Assembly (NCBI GenBank): GCA_030040265.1
Contig: JASHUB010000009.1
Span: forward strand, 1 to 32,123
DNA: 32,123 nt
Source of the DNA: Microcaldota archaeon
GTDB taxonomy: Archaea > Micrarchaeota > Micrarchaeia > Micrarchaeales > CABMGC01
Direction of reading: 5' to 3'
Numbering within the stretch: the stretch's first letter is position 1; the number at the start of each line of letters is the position of its first letter. The notes below the pieces were generated by a model. The model had not been told where the DNA came from and ran no database searches. It saw only the letters and a list, made by a program, of their open reading frames with translations. Below, piece by piece: positions 1,709 to 19,917 of this stretch. The position numbers and the translations under genes were made by a program.

Positions 1709-2440
1709 TCACAGGCTGAAGCCGCGGTACATGAACGAGAAGATCAGCGCGATTGCCAGCATGAACACTAGCAGGAACAGCAGGTAGCCCGAGCCTATGA
1801 CATAGAAGAGCATGAGGAAGGTGACCGCGACCATGGCGAAGTAAACGGGCTTGTTCCAGCGCAGCACCTTCGAGCCGTCGAGCGGGAAGACAGGCAGCAT
1901 GTTGAAGAACGCTAGGATTATGCTTATGAAGAGCGTAAGGTTCACCAGCGACGCGAGGTAGCTGTGGAGGCCAGCTCCGACAGTTGGGAGTGCGAAAGAG
2001 CTTCCGGCAAAGTACAGGAAGTGTATCGCAAGGAAGACGAGGAATATGGCGAAGTTGGTCATCGGGCCGGCGAGCGACACGACACCCTCCTCGTTCTTCG
2101 TGAAGGTGTTGGTATATATGACCGTTGCGCCAGGGATGCCGAGCAGGAACCCGAACATTCCGGATATCAGCGTGATGCCCAGGCCGATCGTGGATGTCCT
2201 GAACGCGGCGACAGCGCCGTACTTCTGCGCAGTGAACTTGTGCATCATCTCGTGGAGCACGAACGATATCGTTATCGCGAAGAGCGCTATCGGGAACAGG
2301 TACAGGAACACCATCTCGTTCCCGCGGACCGCCTTAGCGCCGCCTATGAGTGCCAGGCTGAAAGCCAGCGACAGCACTAGGTCGGCGAGCACTATGTCCT
2401 GTAGCTCTCTTGCCAGTGAAAGGTGTTCTCTAAGCTGCAT
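1709..2440 (-). CDS. M50 family (site-2 protease-like) membrane metalloprotease
   Basis: Polytopic protein with HExxH-type motif (FVLHEMMHKFTAQKYGA) and the downstream NMLPVFPLDGSKVLRW NPDG-like motif typical of S2P/M50. Confidence 0.85.
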   Translation of the reverse strand: MQLREHLSLARELQDIVLADLVLSLAFSLALIGGAKAVRGNEMVFLYLFPIALFAITISFVLHEMMHKFTAQKYGAVAAFRTSTIGLGITLISGMFGFLLGIPGATVIYTNTFTKNEEGVVSLAGPMTNFAIFLVFLAIHFLYFAGSSFALPTVGAGLHSYLASLVNLTLFISIILAFFNMLPVFPLDGSKVLRWNKPVYFAMVAVTFLMLFYVIGSGYLLFLLVFMLAIALIFSFMYRGFSL

Positions 2441-4488: not shown

Positions 4489-5748
4489 GTGCAATACAAC
4501 AAAAAGACCGTGAGAGACGCAGCGGAGGATGGCCTCATCGCAGGCAAGACCGTACTTTTGAGATCGGACCTCAACGTTCCACTTGACAAGATGGGCAAGG
4601 TAAAGGATCCAAGGAAGATAGTGGCGTCGCTAGATACCGTCAGGTATCTCAGGGAACAGGGGGCGATGGGCATAGTCATGATGAGCCACCTTGGCAGGCC
4701 AGACGGGAAGCCAGTGCCGTCATTGAGCATGAAGACTGTTTATGATTGGCTCGCTGCCCCGAGAGGAGGCTTGGGACCGAGCCTGGAGAACGTGGTGCTG
4801 GCGCCGGACTGCATAGGCCCTGAGACCGTAAGCATGGCCAAAAGCGCGACGGAAGGCAGGGTCGTGCTTCTCGAGAACACAAGGTTCTATCCGGAAGAGG
4901 AAGCCAACGACAGTGTTTTCTCGGCGTCGCTGAGCACCCTCGGAGACGTGTACGTGGATGACGCATGGGGGACTGCGCACAGGGCCCACGCATCCAATGT
5001 TGGAGTCGCAAGGCTCATGCCAAGTTACATCGGCCTCCTGATGAAGCAGGAGCTAACGTACATCGGCAACCTTCTCGGTAAACCGGAGCAGCCGTTCATA
5101 ATCGCGTTGGGCGGCGCGAAGGCGTTTGACAAGATCCCTATTTTGAAGAACCTTGAGAGGCGCATATCGAAAGCGTTGATCGGCGGCGCGCTGGGGAACG
5201 CATTCCTGGCCTCGCAGGGAAGAAGGATGGGCACGTCGAAGGTCGACCAGGAGAGCCTCGGGCCGGCTGGCGAGGTGCTCGGGATCATGGGAGATAAGAT
5301 ACTGCTGCCGACAGACGTCATCGTGTGCGAGAAGATGGAGACTGGACTTCCCATCAGCGTAAGGAAAGTTGACGACATACCATCCGATGTGGGTGCGTAC
5401 GACATCGGGCCGGAGACCCAGCAGGCTTTCGGAGCCGCGATAGAAGAGGGAAGCACGATCTTCTACAACGGGCCGCAGGGAGTCACCGCCATAGAGGAGT
5501 TTACCGGAGGCACGAGGTCCGTGCTTGCAGCAGGGACGAACGGACGTGGCAGGCAGAAGACCACGACCGCAGGCGGAGGAGACATGGCGGACGCTGTCAC
5601 GCAACTGGGCTACGCTGAAAAGTTATCTTGGGTCTCAACCGGAGGCGGCGCCACACTCGAAGTGCTTGGAGGCGAACCTCTGCTGGCGCTTGAAGTGATC
5701 AAGGATGCACGGCGCGACCCCGATGAATGGAGCGGAGACCGGATCTAG
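4489..5748 (+). CDS. pgk: phosphoglycerate kinase
   Basis: RSDLNVPLD, MSHLGRPDG, STIFYNGPQGV and AGGGDMADAV...VSTGGGATLEVLGG motifs; GTG start preceded by a purine-rich ggagcaggg. Confidence 0.95.
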   Translation: MQYNKKTVRDAAEDGLIAGKTVLLRSDLNVPLDKMGKVKDPRKIVASLDTVRYLREQGAMGIVMMSHLGRPDGKPVPSLSMKTVYDWLAAPRGGLGPSLENVVLAPDCIGPETVSMAKSATEGRVVLLENTRFYPEEEANDSVFSASLSTLGDVYVDDAWGTAHRAHASNVGVARLMPSYIGLLMKQELTYIGNLLGKPEQPFIIALGGAKAFDKIPILKNLERRISKALIGGALGNAFLASQGRRMGTSKVDQESLGPAGEVLGIMGDKILLPTDVIVCEKMETGLPISVRKVDDIPSDVGAYDIGPETQQAFGAAIEEGSTIFYNGPQGVTAIEEFTGGTRSVLAAGTNGRGRQKTTTAGGGDMADAVTQLGYAEKLSWVSTGGGATLEVLGGEPLLALEVIKDARRDPDEWSGDRI

Positions 5749-7725: not shown

Positions 7726-8166
7726 ATGAGCATGGCGAGCAAGGAGGGGATGAAGAACCACGTTATAATATGCGGCTACGGGCTGGTCGGCGAGATGGTC
7801 GCCGACATACTGATGCAGCACGGCGCCCAGTTCGTAGTAATAGAGCCGGACCAGACGAAAGTCGACAACATGAGGCAGCGCGGCATAAGCGTGGTGAAGG
7901 GCGATGCTACACTGGCGAAGAGCCTCAGGGAGGCGAACATCGCCAGCGCCAAGGCGATAGCAATAGTCATAGACGATGATGCAACTGACCTGTTCGCAGT
8001 CATAACGGCTAGGAGCCTGAACAGCAAGATAGTGATAGCCACCAGGGTGAACGATGCCGGCATGAAGAGCAAGATGAAGGACGCCGGCGCTAACTACGTA
8101 GCGACACCAAACCAGTCTGTCGTTGACGAGCTGTTCGGCGAGCTGTTGAAGGGCTATGGTAGATAG
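7726..8166 (+). CDS. stand-alone TrkA-N/RCK domain protein
   Basis: NHVIICGYGLVGEMVADILMQHGAQFVVIEPDQTKVDNMRQRGISVVKGDAT: Rossmann GxGxxG and typical RCK-N pattern. ATG 7732 is an alternative start. Confidence 0.85.
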   Translation: MSMASKEGMKNHVIICGYGLVGEMVADILMQHGAQFVVIEPDQTKVDNMRQRGISVVKGDATLAKSLREANIASAKAIAIVIDDDATDLFAVITARSLNSKIVIATRVNDAGMKSKMKDAGANYVATPNQSVVDELFGELLKGYGR

Positions 8167-8941
8167 GATGCCGAGCAAGCAGACGTCCGAGGAAACAAGG
8201 AACGTCCTTGTCTCGACGCTCGTCATAGCCACAACGATAATAGTCGTCTCGCTCATACTTCTTATCTACCTCACTGGTAACTACTACCTCAGCGCGTACT
8301 ATGCCCTCGAGATCTTCTTCCTCGCCTCGAACAGCTTCGCGGCTTCAACGCTGTCGCAGCTGGCGATCGCTGGCGGGACGCTCAAGTTCGGCGAGATAAT
8401 GGGCATCCAGATAGTGGACAACATAAGCAGGCTGCTCGTGATCAGCTTCGTGGTCGCCGCGGTGGTGGATTTCGTGGCGTACGCGAACCTCGAGAACCTG
8501 CTCAACAAGTTCAGGATAAGGCTTCTGAGCAACCACATCATAGTTTGCGGTTCGGGAGACGCGTCAGATTACATAGTGTCTAAGCTCAGGCCGCTTGGCA
8601 GGTATTTCGTCGTGATAGAGCAGGACAGGGAACGTGCCATAGAGATAGGGCACGGGAAGGCCGTGACGCTTGTGGGGAACTTCACTGACGCGGAGACGCT
8701 GAATGCAGCGGCGGTGCAGAAGGCGTATGCCGTACTTTTCTTCTCCCAGTCGGACATCGACAACCTGCTCGGCACGGTGACCGCGAGATCCCTCAACAAG
8801 GACGTGAAGATAGTCGCACGTGCAACGAAAGACGACGTGAGGAGGAAGATGTACAGGGCAGGGGCAGACATGTGCGCCCTTCCAGAGTATCTCGCCGGGC
8901 TGGAGATCGCCGACAAGCTGGTCGGAGTGATGAAGAAGTGA
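8156..8941 (+). CDS. membrane protein with C-terminal TrkA-N/RCK domain, no TVGYGD filter
   Basis: N-terminal hydrophobic helices, then SNHIIVCGSGDASDYIVSKLRPLGRYFVVIEQD...; no T-x-G-Y-G motif between the TM segments. ATG 8168 is an alternative start. Confidence 0.8.
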   Translation: MVDRMPSKQTSEETRNVLVSTLVIATTIIVVSLILLIYLTGNYYLSAYYALEIFFLASNSFAASTLSQLAIAGGTLKFGEIMGIQIVDNISRLLVISFVVAAVVDFVAYANLENLLNKFRIRLLSNHIIVCGSGDASDYIVSKLRPLGRYFVVIEQDRERAIEIGHGKAVTLVGNFTDAETLNAAAVQKAYAVLFFSQSDIDNLLGTVTARSLNKDVKIVARATKDDVRRKMYRAGADMCALPEYLAGLEIADKLVGVMKK

Positions 8942-8945
8942 TGAT

Positions 8946-9683
8946 ATGAGGCTGCTCGTGATACAGAAGATATTGATCGTCGCGATAGTCGTGGCAGCGA
9001 TCCTCTCGGTCACTGGCGTGATTGCGAACCGGCAGCCGTTCTACATCGCGCTGTTCTTCACTGTTCTGAACATACTCGGCTCTGACTTCGTGATAAACAG
9101 CTCTCTCATAGACGTGCCAAACAGGGTGATGCTCGGCGTCCAGGTCATCGATGTGGCTGCCAACATAATGCTGACCATACTGATAACCACGGTGTTCTAC
9201 CAGCTGCTCAGCAGGCTCGACCTCAGGTACATAGTGGCGAGGTCGAAGGCGCGCCGTCTCTCAAACCACGTGATACTTACGCCAGCCAACGAGATGTCGC
9301 TGCTGCTGTCCAAGAGGCTGAAGGAGAAGGGCATCGGGTCCGTTGTTGTGGACAAGGACTACCTCAAGGTTGTGAACTTCGTTGGTAGGGGAGTGCTGGC
9401 CTATCACGGGAACCCCACGGACCAGGGCGTTCTCGAATACGTGCAGATAGGCAAGGCAAGGTCGGTGATCACGCTGGACAAGGACGATGCGAGCAACCTC
9501 TACATAGCGATGTCGGCAAGGAAGGCGAACGGCAGCGTTAGGGTCGTCTCAAGGCTGAAGAGGCTTGATGACATGATGAAGCTCGAGAAGTCGGGGGTGA
9601 ACCGGGTCGTCCTTCCGGAGTTTGCGATAAGCAAGGACATCGGAGAGTTTCTTACCGAGAGAAGATCGCAAAAAGGTTTATAA
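8946..9683 (+). CDS. membrane protein with C-terminal divergent TrkA-N/RCK domain, no canonical K+ filter
   Basis: N-terminal TM segments with FFTVLNILGSDFVINSS where TVGYGD would be expected; C-terminal SNHVILTPANEMSLLLSKRLKEKGIGSVVVDKDYLKV... Confidence 0.75.
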   Translation: MRLLVIQKILIVAIVVAAILSVTGVIANRQPFYIALFFTVLNILGSDFVINSSLIDVPNRVMLGVQVIDVAANIMLTILITTVFYQLLSRLDLRYIVARSKARRLSNHVILTPANEMSLLLSKRLKEKGIGSVVVDKDYLKVVNFVGRGVLAYHGNPTDQGVLEYVQIGKARSVITLDKDDASNLYIAMSARKANGSVRVVSRLKRLDDMMKLEKSGVNRVVLPEFAISKDIGEFLTERRSQKGL

Positions 9684-9724
9684 GTTAATTATGCTCATAC
9701 TGATTGTTTAAAAAGCGTGCCACC

Positions 9725-10936
9725 ATGCCTGAGCAGCCCGTCACCACTAGCATAGACGAATTAGTCAGGTACTTGAAAGAGCACGGGGAGACCGATTCGG
9801 TGACCCTTGCGGTCGCTCTGAAGGTCAGCCCGAACATAATCGAGGACTGGAGCAACATACTCGAGAAGGCCAACCTTGTCAAGATAAGCTACAGGGTCGG
9901 CAAGATGTACATATCGATGACCGTAGCCGAGACCAAGGAGAAGGAGCAGGCGATGGGCAGGATGATGGAGGAGCGCGGCGGAGAGGTCGAGTCATCGATC
10001 GCGACGCAGGAGGCCCTGGCCAAACGCGTCGCAGAGCGCATCGACGAGTACAAGAAGCAGGTGTCCGGCGCGGAGCGTGTCTTCAGGGAGAAGTCCGGAG
10101 GCATAAAGGAGGCGCTTGACAGGCTGGACAAGCTGGAGGGCGACGCTGGACGGCGCTACAGGTCGCTGACCGAGAAGAAGGAGGTGGTCGACAGGCTGTC
10201 CAAGGACCTCGAGCGGGACATGAACGCGCTGATAGACAGGGCGGATGCGGCCAAGCGCACAGAGCTTCTTGGCACGGGCGATGCGCAGAAGATATTCCAG
10301 GACGTGCAGGGCAAGATAAAGGCGTCGGAGGACGCTGCCGCATCGCTGCTGAAGAGCTTTGACGAGGCGGTCGCGAAGCAGAGGAAGAGCCTGCTTACCG
10401 TTATAGACAGCATAAGGAACGAGGATGAGGCGCTCAGGAAGACCGCGACGGAGCACGAGAGGCAGGCCGAGAAGTACGAACACACGCTCGAGGGCTACGC
10501 GCGCGAGACGGACTCCGTGAAGAGGAGGATAGGCTCGGAGAAGACCAGGCTCCTGGACGAGCTAACGCAGGCGAAGCAGGAGATAGACAAGCTCAACAAG
10601 GCTGCCGATGCGGAGATGGGCAGGATGAGCTCAGGGCTGAAGGACGTCAGGGACAAGTTCGGAGGGTACGCGAAGCTCGACAAGCAGATCCAGGAGGTGA
10701 AGTCGAAGCTGGAGGGCCTGGAGAAGGACAAGAACGACATACTCAAGGAGCTTTCTGAGATGGACACGGAGCTCAGGGCTATCGCTGCCCTAGGGCCCGG
10801 CAAGGTCGCGCAGAAGACCGAGAGGATCGCGAAAGTGGCGGAGAAGGCGAAGAAGACAAGGAGGAGGACTGACGACGTCGTAGAGAAGAGCGCCAAGACG
10901 AAGGACGACGTTGACGAGATAGGCACGGAGAAGTGA
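9725..10936 (+). CDS. N-terminal winged-helix-like domain plus long coiled-coil; first gene of pilus assembly operon
   Basis: SIDELVRYLKEHGETDSVTLAVALKVSPNIIEDWSNILEKANLVKISYRVGKMYISM resembles a winged helix; the rest is Lys/Glu/Asp-rich coiled-coil. An in-frame TTG at 9704 is an alternative start. Confidence 0.7.
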   Translation: MPEQPVTTSIDELVRYLKEHGETDSVTLAVALKVSPNIIEDWSNILEKANLVKISYRVGKMYISMTVAETKEKEQAMGRMMEERGGEVESSIATQEALAKRVAERIDEYKKQVSGAERVFREKSGGIKEALDRLDKLEGDAGRRYRSLTEKKEVVDRLSKDLERDMNALIDRADAAKRTELLGTGDAQKIFQDVQGKIKASEDAAASLLKSFDEAVAKQRKSLLTVIDSIRNEDEALRKTATEHERQAEKYEHTLEGYARETDSVKRRIGSEKTRLLDELTQAKQEIDKLNKAADAEMGRMSSGLKDVRDKFGGYAKLDKQIQEVKSKLEGLEKDKNDILKELSEMDTELRAIAALGPGKVAQKTERIAKVAEKAKKTRRRTDDVVEKSAKTKDDVDEIGTEK

Positions 10937-10943
10937 TTTGCTT

Positions 10944-12452
10944 ATGATAGAAGACGACCCGAAAGATGGCAAGGTGTTCGAGGAGTACGACCTCGACGCA
11001 CATGGACTCAAGGTGCACATAACGATAGCCGACCGCGGCGACTTCGTGCCCAACTACGAGATAAGGATGGCTGGCATAGGAGAGGCGACGCGCGTTCTGC
11101 TCCTCTCGCTGAGGCAGGAGCTGCTCTCGCTCATTCCCATAGACCCGACGAGAGTCGAGGACAAGGAGTACGTTGACGAGCTCACCGCGAAGTACGTGGA
11201 CGCGAGCGGAGTGGTGCTGAACAAGTACCTTCCGGGCACCGACCCGAACACGAAGAAGATGCTCATCGCTTACATAATCAACGTGATGCTGGGGCTCGGC
11301 GACCTAGAGGCGCCGCTCGCTGACGACAACCTCGAAGAGGTCGCTGTGAACAACAGCAGGGAGAACGTCTGGGTGTTCCACAAGACGTACGGATGGTGCA
11401 GGACGAACATGCGCATCGACAGCGAGGCGCTGATATACGACGACGCGGAGATAATAGGAAGGAGGGTCGGCAGGCAGGTCACCAACCTGTCGCCGCTCAT
11501 GGACGCGGAGCTTCCTGACGGATCCAGGGTCAACGCAACGCTCCTCCCAATCTCGCAGTTCGGTAACACTATAACGATAAGGAAGTTCGCAAAGAACCCG
11601 TGGACAATGCCGGCCATGGTGCAGAACAAGACGGTGTCGAGCGAGGTCGCCGCGCTGATATGGCTCTGCATCCAGAACGAGATAAGCCTGCTCATCTCCG
11701 GCGGAACGGCCAGCGGGAAGACCAGTTTCCTCAACGCGCTCTCCATATTCATACCATCGAACCGCAGGATAGTCTCGGTCGAAGAGACCAGAGAGCTGAC
11801 GCTGCCCAAGTTCCTCCACTGGGTGCCGATGCTGACAAGGCAGGCTAACCCGGAGGGCAAGGGAGAGGTGACGCTGTACAACCTTATGATAAACGCGCTC
11901 AGGCAGAGGCCTGACGTCATGCTGGTCGGAGAGATCAGGACCAAGGGCGGCGCGGAGACGCTGTTCGAGGCGATACACACGGGGCACGCCGTGTACGGAA
12001 CGCTGCACGCGGACAACGCGCAGGACACGGTGATAAGGCTGACCAACCCTCCGCTGGACCTGCCGAAGCTCATGCTCAACTCGATAGGTGCGGTCGTGTC
12101 GCTGTTCAGGCACAGGAGGCTCGGCATAAGAAGGGCGCTGGAGTTCGGAGAGATACTGAGGAGCGGCGACATAAACGTGCTCTACAGGTGGAACATAAGG
12201 AACGACAACATAACCCAGATAGCAGAGCTTTCCAGGCTGAGCGAGCTCATCTCGCTGTACGGAGGATACACCAGGCCGGAGATACTGGACGACGTGAAGG
12301 AGAAGTCGAAGGTGCTCGATTGGATGTCGAAAAACAACGTCATAGACGTAGACTCTTCCGGAATGGTGGTCGCGAGCTACTACAAGGACAGGGAGAACGT
12401 CATGAAGATGATCGAGCAGGACAAGCCTTACAGCAAGGACATGTTTGGTTGA
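10944..12452 (+). CDS. type II/IV secretion system (GspE/ArlI/TadA-like) ATPase
   Basis: Walker A LLISGGTASGKTSFLNAL; ALRQRPDVMLVGEIRTKGGAETLFEAIHTGHAVYGTLHAD with Asp, His and Walker B boxes. Confidence 0.93.
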   Translation: MIEDDPKDGKVFEEYDLDAHGLKVHITIADRGDFVPNYEIRMAGIGEATRVLLLSLRQELLSLIPIDPTRVEDKEYVDELTAKYVDASGVVLNKYLPGTDPNTKKMLIAYIINVMLGLGDLEAPLADDNLEEVAVNNSRENVWVFHKTYGWCRTNMRIDSEALIYDDAEIIGRRVGRQVTNLSPLMDAELPDGSRVNATLLPISQFGNTITIRKFAKNPWTMPAMVQNKTVSSEVAALIWLCIQNEISLLISGGTASGKTSFLNALSIFIPSNRRIVSVEETRELTLPKFLHWVPMLTRQANPEGKGEVTLYNLMINALRQRPDVMLVGEIRTKGGAETLFEAIHTGHAVYGTLHADNAQDTVIRLTNPPLDLPKLMLNSIGAVVSLFRHRRLGIRRALEFGEILRSGDINVLYRWNIRNDNITQIAELSRLSELISLYGGYTRPEILDDVKEKSKVLDWMSKNNVIDVDSSGMVVASYYKDRENVMKMIEQDKPYSKDMFG

Positions 12453-13083: not shown

Positions 13084-13130
13084 GATTGCGTTTATAGTCT
13101 TTGACGTTGGATTAGAAGAAGCGTGCTTTG

Positions 13131-14195
13131 ATGGCCCTGCTCAATAAGGACGACCCGGATGAGACCCAAAACAAGGGACCAGTGGTAGGTTTCACCAAGC
13201 CGAAGAAGTTCCTCTTCTTCAAGCAGAGGGCGAAGCCGATATACGCTTCGGACCAGGCGGCCGGACAGTCCCAGGCGGCGGCCCAGCAGGCACAGCCAAG
13301 GCAGCCGATATTCAACACAACCGCACCGCAGCCAACGGCGCAGGCAGGCGCGGAGGCAAAACCAAAGGGGATGTCCAGCTTCAGGTTCTTCATAACCAAC
13401 ACAGCCGCAAGGAAGCGCGGCCTCGAACTCGCGCTGAAGGCGCAGGGGATAAAGTCGACGCCGTACGAGTTCGTGAGAAGGATGTTCTTCTCTGCTGTGA
13501 TCGTCGCGGCGGTCGTCGCGATCGCGCTCGGCGTCCTCTTCTACGACATAGGCATAACCCCGATACTTGCGATAATCATAGGCATAGCTCTTTACTACGG
13601 CCTGTTCTACAACTTCCTCGACTTCCCTATAGCAAGGGGCAGGAGCACGGCCAGGGAGGTCGAGAGGGACATACTCTACGCCGCAAGGGACCTTGTCATC
13701 GGGATGAGGTCTGGAATGCCGCTGTTCAACGCGCTCACAACGGTGAGCAAGGGATATGGGGCGGCGAGCAGGGAGTTCGGCAAGGTTGTGCAGCTCATAG
13801 AGCTGGGCATGCCGATAGAGCAGGCGATAGACGAGGTCAGCGGCCAGAGCTCGTCCAGAACTTTCAAGATGCTCATGCTGCAGGCATCGGTCTCGATACG
13901 GGCAGGCGCCGACGTGGTAGGCGCGCTGCAGAGCGTGGTCGACGAGGTCACGCAGGAGCGCATCATAGAGCTCAGGAGATACGGGCAGAGGCTGAACGCG
14001 CTCGCGATGTTCTACATGCTGTTCGGCGTGATATTCCCGAGCATGGGCATAGCCGTGGCCGCGATACTCACCACGTTCATAAGCCTCTTCACGGTCAACG
14101 AGACGACGCTCGCCTTCGCTCTTGTCGGGATAATATTCGTCCAGGTGATATTCCTTAACCTGATGAGGACCTCGCGTCCTTCGTTCGCGGTGTGA
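13131..14195 (+). CDS. T2SSF/TadC/ArlJ-like pilus assembly membrane protein, Gln/Ala-rich N-terminal extension
   Basis: EVERDILYAARDLVIGMRSGMPLFNALTTVSKGYGAASREFGKVVQLIELGMPIEQAIDEV... T2SSF pattern, C-terminal TM segments. Confidence 0.85.
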   Translation: MALLNKDDPDETQNKGPVVGFTKPKKFLFFKQRAKPIYASDQAAGQSQAAAQQAQPRQPIFNTTAPQPTAQAGAEAKPKGMSSFRFFITNTAARKRGLELALKAQGIKSTPYEFVRRMFFSAVIVAAVVAIALGVLFYDIGITPILAIIIGIALYYGLFYNFLDFPIARGRSTAREVERDILYAARDLVIGMRSGMPLFNALTTVSKGYGAASREFGKVVQLIELGMPIEQAIDEVSGQSSSRTFKMLMLQASVSIRAGADVVGALQSVVDEVTQERIIELRRYGQRLNALAMFYMLFGVIFPSMGIAVAAILTTFISLFTVNETTLAFALVGIIFVQVIFLNLMRTSRPSFAV

Positions 14196-14197
14196 AA

Positions 14198-15193
14198 ATG
14201 GAGCAGACATCTTTCGAGAAACTGGTTTCGAGGAACGTCGTCAGGTTCCTGTCCAGCGAGCTCGACATGGCAGGTGTCAAGACGTCTGTGAACACGCTGC
14301 TGGCCATAATGATCATCGGCGGATTCGCGGTCTTCATACTCACGCCTGTCCTGCTGATACTGTTGCTCAAGGTGAACCCGGCCATCTCCGGTGTCGCGGG
14401 ACTGCTGCTCGCGACATTCTTCGAGCTGTCCATATACCTCGTGCTGGAGCTCAGGATAGAGCAGAGAAGGACGTACGTCGACTCGATACTGCCGGACTAC
14501 ATCCAGATAGTGTCGGCGAACATAAGGAGCGGGATCTCGCTTGACAAGGCCATGCTCCTCGCCGCCAGGCCGGAGTTCACGTACTTCAGCGATGATGTGA
14601 AGCTGATAAACAGGGAGCTGTACGCGGGAGAGACCATACAGAACGCACTCACGCTGCTTTCAACCAAGTACAGGTCGTTCCAGCTCAGGCATACGATAAG
14701 GATGATGACCGAGGCGCTGCAGTATGGCGGAGGCATGACGGACCTGCTGAACCAGATAGCCAAGGACATAAGGCAGCAGCTCATAATCCAGAAGGAGATA
14801 TCGGGACAGCTCTTCATGTACACGATATTCATAGCGTTCGCCGGGCTCATAGGAGCTCCGGTGCTCTACGGACTGACCACACAGATGATCACCATCACCG
14901 ACACGGTGTGGGCTGGCATACTCAAGCAGAATCCAGGGGGGCTGCCGACTACCGGCATCTCATTCCTGAGGCCGAGCCCGCCGCAGGTTACCATCGCAGG
15001 GTACCACGACTTCGCGCTCGCTGCGGTCCTGACCATAGCGGGTTTCGGCGCGTTCATAGTGTCCGCGATAAGCACGGGCTCCGTGCCGAAGGGCATACGC
15101 TACCTTCCGCTGTTCCTTATCATAGCGCTCTCCGTGTACCTGATCGTGGGCGCTATAATGGGCAACCTGTTCACGACGCTCAGCACGGTGTGA
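14198..15193 (+). CDS. second T2SSF/TadC/ArlJ-like pilus assembly membrane protein
   Basis: VDSILPDYIQIVSANIRSGISLDKAMLLAARPEFTYFSDDVKLINRELYAGETIQNALTLL... T2SSF pattern with multiple TM segments. Confidence 0.85.
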   Translation: MEQTSFEKLVSRNVVRFLSSELDMAGVKTSVNTLLAIMIIGGFAVFILTPVLLILLLKVNPAISGVAGLLLATFFELSIYLVLELRIEQRRTYVDSILPDYIQIVSANIRSGISLDKAMLLAARPEFTYFSDDVKLINRELYAGETIQNALTLLSTKYRSFQLRHTIRMMTEALQYGGGMTDLLNQIAKDIRQQLIIQKEISGQLFMYTIFIAFAGLIGAPVLYGLTTQMITITDTVWAGILKQNPGGLPTTGISFLRPSPPQVTIAGYHDFALAAVLTIAGFGAFIVSAISTGSVPKGIRYLPLFLIIALSVYLIVGAIMGNLFTTLSTV

Positions 15194-17776
15194 TCAAGGG
15201 ACCGAGAGTCCCATGCTCTGCCATTCGTCCAGAGTAGCGACCGGAGAAGACAGCCCAGGTGCATCGTACACTCCCGACATTGGGACCCAACTTATGTTCG
15301 CGGTGGTGCCGTTGTCGGCGAAACCGCTGTAGTCTTTCGCGTTGCCGTTTAGCGGCCACCATCCGACCAGACCGTTCGAGGATAGGGGCATGCCGTATAC
15401 TCCACGGCGATACAGCTCCGCGACCTGTGGCGCGCTAAGCGACCGGTTGTAGATCTGCACATCGGCCAGGCTGCCGTTCAGGCTTGAAGGAACCGCTTCG
15501 CTGAAGCCGAGCTTTATCGGGTTGATGGAGTTCGATAGAAGGCCCGCGGGCACCGCGGTCGACGGCTCTGGCGTCCCGTTCAGGTACAGCATCATCGTCC
15601 CTGCACCACCATATGTGACCGCGGCGAAGTACCACGTGTCGTTGTTCACGACAAGGGTACCGAGTGGGGTGGTTGCCGTGCCGCCGCTGGTGGTCAAGGT
15701 CGCCTGGAGGTTTTGGTCATCCACGGAAAGATTGAAGTCGTCGAAGCCAGCCACGCTGCTCGTCTTTGAGACGAGCACGGAGTTTGCCGTGGTGTTGGCC
15801 AGCCTGAACCATACCGCGAGGGTTATCTCTCCTGACGCATTTATCTGCGGCGCGCTCGGTATCGTTACGTTGCTGCCCGGGCCGCTGAATGCCGCTGTCT
15901 GTGCGCCTTTCTGTCCTATCTCAAGGGGCGCGCCACCAAGATAGACGTGCGGCAGTGCGTTGTTGTCACACTGCGATACGCTGTCGCAGTTGAGCACTCC
16001 TGGCACCGCCCAGACCTGGCCGACGTCGCGGGACAGGAAGCTGTCACGTGCATAGCCTGGGGCGACAGTGAATGGGATTGCGGGAGACGATGCGGCGTTG
16101 TTGCCATTGCCGCTATAATCGTTCGGGTTGCCGTTGAGCGGCCACCATCCGACAAGGCCGGAGTTGCCTGCGGGTACGTCGCTGACTCCGTTCTGGAACA
16201 GCGTGGTGAGCTCGGAGCGCGTCAGCGAGGAGTTGTACACCTGCACGCTGGCCACGTATCCGTTGGTGAGGGAGCCTATGTCGAACGGGTTGCCAGAAGC
16301 GGGTATCGACCCGGATGCGGAGGTGTTCACGCACATCGATGCGTCTATGCAGACTTCTATGAGCGACCCGGAGTAAGTGCCCGACAGCATGTACCACCCG
16401 CCAGAGGAGATGCTATTGGTGGTGGTCACGCCCCCTACAGTAGGTATGCTGAAGGCGACGGTGCCCGTGTTGCCGACGCTGAGCCCACCCACGCCTCCGG
16501 ATTGCATGGTCACAACAGCAGCGCTGGTGGGCGCTGGAAGCGAGTTGAGATAGACCCACACGACCTGCGTCTCTGCGCTTGTCCCGAATGGGACCGAGTT
16601 CGCTGCGAACGCGGCCATCGAGCCGCTCAGGCTTGCAGCCTGACGGTCGTAGCCTGAGAACGCAACTACACCATCTGGCGAGTCGTTCATCAGCGACGAC
16701 TGGGCGCGTTCGAGATACGATGGCGCAAGCGGAGATGCGAAGTAGTAGCCTCCTGATGCAGCGGCGATCAGGCCGCTTATGTCGTAGGTCGAGAGCGTTG
16801 GCCCGTAGAGAAGGATGCTCCTTCCGCTCTCAATGCTGCGCGGGATTGTTGAGTTGGTAGGGTATATGAGGTATGGCACGCCTGGCCCTGACACCGATAC
16901 GTTGGTTATTATGCCGGCAAAGAGCCCTGCGCAGCCACCGAGTGCGCCGGGGTTGCTCGTGACAAGTATGACGCCTTTGTCGAAAGGTGCGTTGAACAGG
17001 AGCGTCGACAGTGTGGCGCACGTGTCCGAAGACATGGATGCCGGGACCTGATATGCTGTGCCATAAGCATACGTCGTGGTGTTGCCCGACTGCGCAGGCT
17101 CGCCGCCGATGGCGGAAGTCAGGTTGTCCAATTCGGCAAAGCTTATCTGCTGGAACACCCCCTGCTGGGCGTAGAACAGGTCCGGGGTTCCGTTGAGCTG
17201 AATCGATGCATTGACCGGAATCGTGTAATTGTAAATGCTTCCGGACGCGTTGATCAGCACGTGCTCGTTGTAAGATACGGTTAGCGCGTATGAGCCATCC
17301 TGGCTTATCACAGGCTGCGTCTCGCTTACCGAGAATTCTGAGTATGGGATGTTCAATGAACCAATGACGTGCGCGTTGTACGACCTGAGCGTGAGGTTGG
17401 CCATGCCGGCGAGCAGCGAATTCGCTGCAGCGCCCTGAGGCACATTCGGCAGCGTGCCGTTTGCGATGAGCCACGACATGTATTCGCTGGTGTTCGATAT
17501 GAAGTTGTCGCGCCTCATCGATGGGTTGTATTCGTAGTTGAACAGAGTCGAGAGCGCCCTCTGCGCGCTGGCTGACGCGAACGACTGTGCGCTGATCGCC
17601 AAGTCCCGTCCGTAAGCGCTGCTGCTGAGGCTCTGCACTGCGATCTGGTCGTTGCCGTTCGCGTTTATCCCCAGAGTTATGTAGGCGACTAGCGAAGCGA
17701 GCATCAGCAGGAAGAGCACCAGTACCAATATGGTCATGAGCTGGCCCTTGCTGCTGCCCCTGAGGTTTATCTCCAT
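15194..17776 (-). CDS. giant pilin-like protein with LamG/concanavalin-like modules
   Basis: Likely start MEINLRGSSKGQLMTILVLVLFLLMLASLVAYI; two GLVGWWPLNGN.xDYSG modules; many N-x-S/T sequons. The upstream part of the listed ORF (before 17776) lies within the preceding gene. Confidence 0.8.
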   Translation of the reverse strand: MEINLRGSSKGQLMTILVLVLFLLMLASLVAYITLGINANGNDQIAVQSLSSSAYGRDLAISAQSFASASAQRALSTLFNYEYNPSMRRDNFISNTSEYMSWLIANGTLPNVPQGAAANSLLAGMANLTLRSYNAHVIGSLNIPYSEFSVSETQPVISQDGSYALTVSYNEHVLINASGSIYNYTIPVNASIQLNGTPDLFYAQQGVFQQISFAELDNLTSAIGGEPAQSGNTTTYAYGTAYQVPASMSSDTCATLSTLLFNAPFDKGVILVTSNPGALGGCAGLFAGIITNVSVSGPGVPYLIYPTNSTIPRSIESGRSILLYGPTLSTYDISGLIAAASGGYYFASPLAPSYLERAQSSLMNDSPDGVVAFSGYDRQAASLSGSMAAFAANSVPFGTSAETQVVWVYLNSLPAPTSAAVVTMQSGGVGGLSVGNTGTVAFSIPTVGGVTTTNSISSGGWYMLSGTYSGSLIEVCIDASMCVNTSASGSIPASGNPFDIGSLTNGYVASVQVYNSSLTRSELTTLFQNGVSDVPAGNSGLVGWWPLNGNPNDYSGNGNNAASSPAIPFTVAPGYARDSFLSRDVGQVWAVPGVLNCDSVSQCDNNALPHVYLGGAPLEIGQKGAQTAAFSGPGSNVTIPSAPQINASGEITLAVWFRLANTTANSVLVSKTSSVAGFDDFNLSVDDQNLQATLTTSGGTATTPLGTLVVNNDTWYFAAVTYGGAGTMMLYLNGTPEPSTAVPAGLLSNSINPIKLGFSEAVPSSLNGSLADVQIYNRSLSAPQVAELYRRGVYGMPLSSNGLVGWWPLNGNAKDYSGFADNGTTANISWVPMSGVYDAPGLSSPVATLDEWQSMGLSVP

Positions 17777-19917
17777 GCGTAAACACCCACGTCGTATGCC
17801 CGAGACGCTCCGGGATAGCTGGCTACAGGAATGCCGACCGTTGCGGACGCCTTGCTCACCTCGAACGAGTTGATGAGTCCGCCTGGAAGGTAGTTCGCAC
17901 CTATTGCATCGACACCGCCGTACACGTAGCCCGTGTAGTTGTACGGGCCGAAGTCGTCGGCGCCGCCCTCCATCGGATACCACGCTAGCGCGCCGCTTAT
18001 CGGAGCGCCCTGGAGCCCGTTCTGGTAGACCTCCTCGACTTGAGGTCCGGTCAGTGCTGTGCCGTATATCTGGACGTTGGCCATCCTGCCCGAATATGAG
18101 TCTGCGGACGGCAACGTGTTGAACGCGCCCAGATACATGCCGCCCCGCGCTCTGGGCAGAACCGGGAGCGTGTTCGAGCTTTCCACGAGCGCGCCGTCAA
18201 CGTATATCGATATGGTGCCGGTTATGTAGTTGTAAGTGCCAACAACGTTTTGCCACTTGTTTGACGATACTGTGGCGCTGACATTATGCCTTGGCACCGT
18301 CCCGTCATTGCTGAAGAGCAGCCTTTGCGATGCCTGTTCCACCATGTATGGGCAGCCGCTGCCTGAGCAGTTCTCCGCCATTATGGTGTTGTTGAGCCCC
18401 TGCCAGGAGTTCGGGTCTATCCACAGCGACCACGAATAAGCGTTGGTCTCGGCGTTGCTGCTGTTGCCCAGGAACACCAGCCCCTTTGCGCCGGTGAAGT
18501 TGTCGACCGCAAGGCCAGGGGCGAACGTCCCGTTGATGAAGACGCTGTAATTATACATGGGAACCACGCCGTTGACCAGCGCCGTGGCGCAGCTTCCCTG
18601 GCCGTTGAGATACAGGGACACTGCAGCGGATAGGACGCTGTCGCTGCTGCTCGCGGGGCATGCGCCGTATGCGGTTATGAACTGGTTGGATGGTACGTAT
18701 AGGTTGCCGTATGCGATCGACATGTTTGGCGAAGCGATACTGTACGGATAGTTGGTTGTCCACAGCACCGCGCCATTGTTGATGTTCTGCGCCACAAGCC
18801 ATCCGCCGGACCAGAGCGAGTACACTATCGAGCCGCCTATCACCGGGGTCGATGCGGGATACGCTGCCCCAAGAGACGGAGGCATCGTCCTTGACCACAG
18901 TTGAATTCCGGATGGTGTATAGGCGGACATCGACGACGTTCCTTGGTAGACTATCAGACCGCTTCCCGTGGCAACTCCTGTGACCGGGCTTGTCGTTGCC
19001 TGCGGGAACGAGCCGAAGTTGCTTCCGTTGAGCGATACCCCGTCTGCAGCAGTGCCGTTTCCGAACACTATTGTGCCGCCGATTCCGGCTATGCTTGATG
19101 ACATCCCGGTGTATCCGACTGGTGCGAAGAGCTCGGCCGCGTTGCCGCCGCTCGCGCCTATCGCGGTGATCGTGCCGGACGTCCTGACAGCGACGGCACC
19201 CTGCACTATTGCTATGTCAGTCGGTACCGCGCCAACATCGACATGCCATTCCACCGTGCCGTTGGAGGCGAAGAGACCATACACGAAGTGGTTGGCACCT
19301 CCCAGTATCACCTGGTCGCCATACACTAAGATAGGTGTGGTGACGAGAGTCGAGCCGGGTATGCCTGCGCTCCAGACTAACGAGCCGTTGAGCGCGCTCA
19401 CGGCTGTGACGTTTGTGGTGTTCGCATATATGATCATGCCTGAATATAGGGCCGGCTCAGATGCGACTACGCTGGGCATATCGATAGCCCAAGCGAGCGT
19501 GCCGAACGTGCCGTTCAGGGCATAGAGTGCGCCTGACGTTGCAAAGTATACATCACCGTAGCCGGCCACCGCACCGCTTATCGGAGCCTGCAACAGAGAA
19601 TACTGGTATGCTACGCTTGGATTTTCGGGACCGGCAGGGGAGTCGCCGGTGTGCGCCGCGTTCTGCCCGAGCTGCGGCCACGTCTCGTTTGCAGCGATAC
19701 CTTTTGCGAGCATCGCAGCGGCGACGTGGCTGGAAGACAGAGTGCCGACACCCGTTCCGAGAAGGCTGTCCAGTATCGACTGCGTGCTTGTGTAACTGAG
19801 CAACGCAGGAGTTGGCGCCTGGTATGTGAAGTACAGGAGTATCGATATCCCTGCTGTCGCTATCACGAGGGCGAATATGGAGTCTAGAGTGAACACTATC
19901 CCCTTCATCTCAGCCAC
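17767..19917 (-). CDS. pilin-like protein with PQQ-type beta-propeller and C-terminal LamG-like domain
   Basis: MAEMKGIVFTLDSIFALVIATAGISILLYF, then repeats such as GYGDVYFATSGALYALNGTFGTLAWAID and ALNGSLVWSAGIPGSTLVTTPILVYGDQVILGG; LamG-like C-terminus SWSLWIDPNSW...ANVQIYGTALTGPQVEEVYQNG. Confidence 0.8.
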   Translation of the reverse strand: MAEMKGIVFTLDSIFALVIATAGISILLYFTYQAPTPALLSYTSTQSILDSLLGTGVGTLSSSHVAAAMLAKGIAANETWPQLGQNAAHTGDSPAGPENPSVAYQYSLLQAPISGAVAGYGDVYFATSGALYALNGTFGTLAWAIDMPSVVASEPALYSGMIIYANTTNVTAVSALNGSLVWSAGIPGSTLVTTPILVYGDQVILGGANHFVYGLFASNGTVEWHVDVGAVPTDIAIVQGAVAVRTSGTITAIGASGGNAAELFAPVGYTGMSSSIAGIGGTIVFGNGTAADGVSLNGSNFGSFPQATTSPVTGVATGSGLIVYQGTSSMSAYTPSGIQLWSRTMPPSLGAAYPASTPVIGGSIVYSLWSGGWLVAQNINNGAVLWTTNYPYSIASPNMSIAYGNLYVPSNQFITAYGACPASSSDSVLSAAVSLYLNGQGSCATALVNGVVPMYNYSVFINGTFAPGLAVDNFTGAKGLVFLGNSSNAETNAYSWSLWIDPNSWQGLNNTIMAENCSGSGCPYMVEQASQRLLFSNDGTVPRHNVSATVSSNKWQNVVGTYNYITGTISIYVDGALVESSNTLPVLPRARGGMYLGAFNTLPSADSYSGRMANVQIYGTALTGPQVEEVYQNGLQGAPISGALAWYPMEGGADDFGPYNYTGYVYGGVDAIGANYLPGGLINSFEVSKASATVGIPVASYPGASRAYDVGVYAWR

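Follow-up and report, generated by a model that had tools for sequence, protein, structure and literature searches.

A conserved Micrarchaeota gene cassette pairs a soluble RCK protein with two MthK-like membrane proteins that lack the potassium selectivity filter

RCK channels are models for ligand-driven pore opening, and no feature of K+ channels is more conserved than the TxGYG filter. Here we describe an operon from a Micrarchaeota genome that encodes one soluble RCK protein, g1, and two membrane proteins of MthK-like architecture, g2 and g3, neither of which carries that filter. The same three genes recur across two families of one Micrarchaeota order and are under purifying selection, and our literature search found no paper on the g1-g2-g3 cassette. 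The reading to which we give most weight, at a little under an even chance, is that the cassette encodes a heteromeric, RCK-ring-gated membrane complex of the MthK fold with a non-K+ pore.

Results and Discussion

The DNA analysed here, referred to as the window, is a 32,123-nucleotide stretch in which positions 7726-9683 hold three co-directional genes forming one tight operon, all on the plus strand. The first, g1 (7726..8166), encodes a free-standing RCK/TrkA_N protein of 146 aa (TrkA_N E=2.6e-29) without the TrkA_C lobe. The second, g2 (8156..8941; TrkA_N E=3.3e-21), and the third, g3 (8946..9683; TrkA_N E=5.4e-19), encode 2TM-RCK membrane proteins and are sister paralogues; judged from its homologues, g2 likely starts at the in-frame ATG at 8168. 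All three genes score above the Pfam cut-off for the TrkA_N fold, and they are the only TrkA_N genes in this genome, the assembly of which is 77.5% complete. An earlier note, made from the sequence alone, had described three consecutive RCK/TrkA_N genes, the first standing alone and the last two with transmembrane segments, and the TrkA_N matches, hydropathy and AlphaFold2 models bear this description out.

Hydropathy analysis gives two transmembrane peaks for g2 (residues 19-37 and 90-108) and two for g3 (9-27 and 62-80), the latter with a third hydrophobic stretch at 32-50 that covers its pore helix and the region where a filter would lie. AlphaFold2 models built on 26-row alignments place the same elements in the same order in both proteins, namely TM1, pore helix, loop, TM2 and a Rossmann RCK domain, with a mean pLDDT of 84 for g2 and 89 for g3. 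According to these models the pore-helix equivalents are residues 43-55 of g2 (8282..8320, plus strand) and residues 32-43 of g3 (9039..9074, plus strand); the RCK/TrkA_N domains follow at 8537..8878 and 9288..9617 on the same strand. Foldseek returned MthK and GsuK as the top solved structures for both proteins (against MthK, E=8.7e-11 for g2 and E=1e-10 for g3), and the g3 profile can be aligned to MthK and GsuK across the pore. The MthK-like domain order that the note had proposed is thus borne out, and the descent of g2 and g3 from RCK K+-channel-type proteins is supported.

What sets g2 and g3 apart from MthK and GsuK is the pore loop. We assembled homologues from the fetched relatives and from loci of named genomes (51 g1, 51 g2 and 48 g3), and none of the 51 g2 or 48 g3 sequences has TxGYG in the pore loop. 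Likewise, Pfam Ion_trans_2 (PF07885) had no match in the 26 g2 and 26 g3 proteins scanned. Of 27 canonical 2TM-RCK channel sequences from this lineage, 24 have T-x-G-Y-G. Since all g2 and g3 homologues are without the filter, its loss characterizes the cassette and not one genome. The pore strings quoted in the earlier note are correct, and a search for the exceptions it had named, a close homologue with TxGYG or a standard filter at another place in the protein, turned up none in either set. A filter hidden elsewhere or by a frameshift was also ruled out, as the frames are intact and none of the 99 homologues has one in its pore loop.

In place of the filter, a pseudo-filter specific to each family is conserved, and for this reason the pore strings of the window are not chance sequences. 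From the AlphaFold2 model and the alignment, the g2 pseudo-filter loop in the window is LASNS (residues 56-60; 8321..8335, plus strand), and here a short loop and an extra helix at residues 61-72 stand where the filter strand would be, in a region where pLDDT is only about 60-70. The g3 equivalent, placed in the same way, is LGSDFVIN (residues 44-51; 9075..9098, plus strand). Among g3 homologues the loop consensus is N-I-I-G-[AS]-x-F-P-P in family f1 (N 90%, I 80%, I 75%, G 100%, A or S 100%, F 95%) and L-[DNQ]-[IV]-x-Y in family f2. For g2 it is F-F-[D/other]-A-x-N in f1 and L-F-D-A-x-G in f2 (D 87%, A 53%, G 83%). A reciprocal exchange of the glycine between g2 and g3 from one family to the other was considered and dropped because it depends on the alignment.

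A precedent for an RCK-gated pore of this kind comes from plants: CASTOR, an RCK channel, conducts Ca2+ without having TVGYG (PMC6697748). The nuclear Ca2+ channels CASTOR, POLLUX and DMI1 share with the cassette the RCK-gated pore architecture without TVGYG, and the CASTOR filter sequence AD265S(A)GNHA resembles the DAxN or DAxG of many g2 homologues in having a filter-loop Asp, although the resemblance is short. The plant channels differ in having four transmembrane segments instead of two, whereas the cassette product would be heteromeric and has a separate soluble RCK protein. Among g2 proteins the loop Asp occurs at 50% in f1 and at 87% in f2; the window g2 has Leu56 in its place, so that the aspartate essential for conduction in CASTOR is missing from this protein. 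This absence, together with the helix-loop-helix modelled for the g2 loop, speaks against a non-K+ pore. So does a feature of g2 TM2 (window 8417-8431, residues 88-92), in which a near-invariant Asp88 is followed in most homologues by Arg or Lys at position 92. The two residues form a possible intramembrane ion pair, which could have a structural role or close the pore.

The three RCK domains differ in their nucleotide motif. The g1 protein of the window has GYGLVG, all 51 g1 homologues have CG[YFL]GxxG, and the strict GxGxxG is kept in 50/51 g1, 2/51 g2 and 0/48 g3. At this site the window g2 reads CGSGDAS, GxGxxG being lost here as in 49 of the 51 g2 homologues, and g3 has TPAN, with P in 89% and N in 79% of its homologues. 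The earlier note had presented loss of GxGxxG as a peculiarity of the third RCK; the loss itself holds, but it is shared with g2. The GxGxxG dinucleotide motif is not universal among RCK/TrkA_N domains, and MthK's own RCK, which also lacks the full motif, is still gated by Ca2+, so that motif loss alone does not imply loss of regulation.

Because the operon combines one soluble with two membrane RCK proteins, it is most simply read as encoding a heteromeric RCK-ring complex. In such a complex g2 and g3 would contribute the pore domains, probably with two copies of each in a tetramer, and the motif-less RCKs of g2 and g3 together with four soluble g1 proteins would form a gating ring of eight RCK domains. 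The g1 protein would be the nucleotide-sensing subunit, and nucleotide bound to it may open the pore through a pull on TM2, with the family-specific pseudo-filters as the pore lining. The resulting ion flux would be weakly selective, or selective for an ion other than K+.

Parts of this arrangement have counterparts in known systems. MthK and GsuK share with the cassette the TM1-pore helix-TM2-RCK order and fold and a soluble RCK partner, and the regulated RCK ring proposed for the cassette would be a further common feature. In MthK the soluble RCK is made from an internal Met (PMC4565861), and the separate g1 gene would do what MthK achieves by this internal translation. In contrast to MthK and GsuK, the cassette would build its pore from two different genes, and its soluble RCK, which lacks the TrkA_C lobe, comes from a separate gene and is the only one of the three RCKs to keep GxGxxG. 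A ring made of different gene products is known from Thermotoga maritima, where the two genes of TM1088A/B form an octameric RCK ring (PMC4380455); that ring serves a putative Trk transporter, whereas the cassette has no TrkH and carries a 2TM pore domain on two of its three RCKs. KtrAB and TrkAH also combine a separate soluble RCK protein with membrane pore subunits, but the cassette has no TrkH/KtrB-type protein and its membrane chains are 2TM proteins with an RCK of their own.

Of 39 fetched relatives, which are Candidatus Micrarchaeota, 26 have g1, g2 and g3 in the same order and on the same strand; they fall into the two families f1 and f2 of a single order. The cassette is also present in Ca. 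Micrarchaeum A_DKE, which is grown in co-culture (locus L103; NZ_CP060530.1, about 408096-410082). The intergenic gaps or overlaps of the cassette are short, often 4 bp, as expected of an operon whose products work in one complex, and the soluble RCK gene is always adjacent to g2 and g3; in one genome (G036) the third gene is present and highly divergent. In a tree of the RCK domains there is one clade for each of the three genes, every one of them dividing into f1 and f2, and g2 and g3 are sisters, matching each other over their full length in a profile comparison (E=1.4e-44). As each gene's clade splits into the same two families, the cassette is older than the f1/f2 split and was inherited as a unit. 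The canonical TVGYGD channels encoded elsewhere in the same lineage form a separate clade in this tree.

Pairwise dN/dS values are about 0.05-0.3, and the transmembrane part is as constrained as the RCK part, which indicates purifying selection and shows that the membrane part is in use. These values bear directly on the idea that g2 and g3 are decaying channel genes on their way out. Loss of the filter and of the nucleotide motif, as well as the strong divergence of g3, would fit such decay; however, the frames are intact in two families, the loops are conserved family by family, and dN/dS far below 1 in both TM and RCK parts goes with retention since before the f1/f2 split. We therefore reject pseudogene decay as very improbable. 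Conserved pore loops within families and selection on the transmembrane parts instead favour a pore of altered selectivity.

The cassette also has conserved neighbours. Downstream in the window lies a pilus-like operon on the plus strand, which begins with a protein with a winged-helix-like N-terminus and a long coiled coil (9704..10936) and continues with a FlaI/TadA-type secretion ATPase (10938..12452; T2SSE E=6e-34; archaellum FlaI model E=8e-72, which is below that model's cut-off), a small protein and a split T2SSF/FlaJ-like platform protein (first half 13128..14195, T2SSF E=7.7e-15; second half 14192..15193, T2SSF E=7.6e-16). The platform protein (13128-15193) is made as two half-proteins from overlapping genes here and in nearly all relatives examined. 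On the minus strand, divergent from the cassette, is a gene for an M50-type membrane metalloprotease (1709..2440; phmmer E=1.9e-62 with its A_DKE homologue, which itself matches Peptidase_M50 at E=2.8e-8). Two other features of the surroundings are worth recording. Adjoining the pilus-like operon, window 15194-19917 on the minus strand encodes two large concanavalin-like (Laminin_G_3) proteins, one with a PQQ/beta-propeller, which by their look are surface adhesins. A phosphoglycerate kinase gene at 4489-5748 has a patchy distribution: PF00162 was found in 8 of 69 family genomes, and there was no close match in 27 relatives, a same-genus one included.

Linkage to the pilus-like operon was found for 21 of 26 cassettes, the remaining five being unlinked; it was counted only in the sample found by g2 itself, as the other named genomes were reached through the T2SSE neighbour. 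In f1 the cassette abuts the operon on the same strand, mostly at 12-71 bp (with one overlap and one gap of 928 bp), whereas in f2 it is divergent from the operon at about 1-4 kb. In both families the M50 gene and the cassette are divergently oriented, and inverting the M50-cassette block turns one arrangement into the other.

This neighbourhood speaks for a different explanation, which the earlier note had also named beside a channel of altered selectivity. In it the cassette products are a non-conducting sensor or scaffold derived from a K+ channel, with an RCK ring that senses nucleotide or redox state and signals to the pilus/archaellum-like machine or to the M50 protease. The loss of the nucleotide motif from two of the three RCKs and of the K+ filter from both pores would also suit such a role. 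Yet one ancestral arrangement plus the inversion largely explains the linkage, which may thus reflect shared history, and since the cassette is missing from many genomes that have the operon, the linkage is suggestive and not proof of a functional tie. The five unlinked cassettes weigh in the same direction, and the pseudo-filter loops are conserved beyond what a pure anchor would need. We regard a sensor or scaffold as rather unlikely, but as the main rival of the non-K+ pore.

A third explanation keeps K+ as the conducted ion. Trk, Ktr and HKT transporters are conductive with a single glycine in each of their pore loops, and g2 and g3 might form a K+ pathway through an unconventional heteromeric filter of that type. 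One loop glycine is indeed retained in g3 of f1 (G45, 100%) and in g2 of f2 (83%), and few other K+ transport genes were found: TrkH (PF02386) is absent from all f1 and f2 genomes searched, Kup and KdpA were not found in the 69 f1 genomes searched, and 17 of 18 cassette-bearing f1 genomes are without a PF07885 match, the remaining one having a weak match. These absences count in favour of the non-K+ pore as well. Against the K+ pathway, TxGYG is missing from all 99 subunits, and the alignment of the retained residues is uncertain, with g2-56 and not g2-59 lying opposite g3-45. PF07885 matches, three of them weak, were found in at least 34 of the 57 cassette-bearing f2 genomes, and incompleteness of the metagenome-assembled genomes may hide transporters. 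Such a K+ pathway seems doubtful.

The same distribution looked at first like replacement of the canonical K+ channel by the cassette, as another 44 f1 genomes have a PF07885 channel and no full cassette. When this alternation is placed on the T2SSE tree, however, it amounts to only about four changes with one well-supported contrast. There is also an f1 exception (G005), in which a contig ends in a g3 fragment and a channel is encoded as well, and in f2 both are often present. We consequently do not adopt replacement as a conclusion, and for the same reasons the f1 alternation gives weak support to a transport role. An order-wide Fisher test was discarded, since the genomes with neither gene were incompletely listed and relatives are not independent.

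Filterless 2TM-RCK proteins also occur outside the cassette. Family f11 (L156-L160) has a gene pair of a soluble RCK and a filterless 2TM-RCK protein, the RCKs of which are sisters; within each genome the C-terminal stretches of the pair are near-identical, as if by gene conversion. Families f10, f15 and f17 have single-gene filterless 2TM-RCK proteins, several with C-x6-C in the loop. These C-x6-C pseudo-filters (CTSLYVDC, CSLTLGKC, CDLTFAHC) are conserved in L161, L162, L163, L166, L168 and L170, and the cysteine pair possibly staples the loop by a disulfide. A 2TM-RCK protein of Nanoarchaeota B4T1B8 (L147:14236-15003) has TTVGLEHN in place of TTVGYGD, an intermediate-looking filter. Given that f10, f11, f15 and f17 have filterless proteins of their own, loss of the K+ filter from 2TM-RCK proteins looks frequent among archaea of this class.

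Conclusions

The most far-reaching version of the pore reading joins several of the points above: a lineage-specific two-gene pore with an unprecedented filter, gated by a separate nucleotide-sensing RCK, would have taken the place of the ordinary K+ channel in some Micrarchaeota and become functionally coupled to the pilus/archaellum-like machine. We consider this combination improbable as a whole. If it were true, the cassette could, for example, control contact with the host cell through a ligand-gated ion signal. More generally, an RCK complex that is maintained while the filter is replaced in two of its subunits would show how selectivity is re-made or given up, and the cassette would be a testable candidate for membrane signalling in host-dependent archaea with few known transporters.
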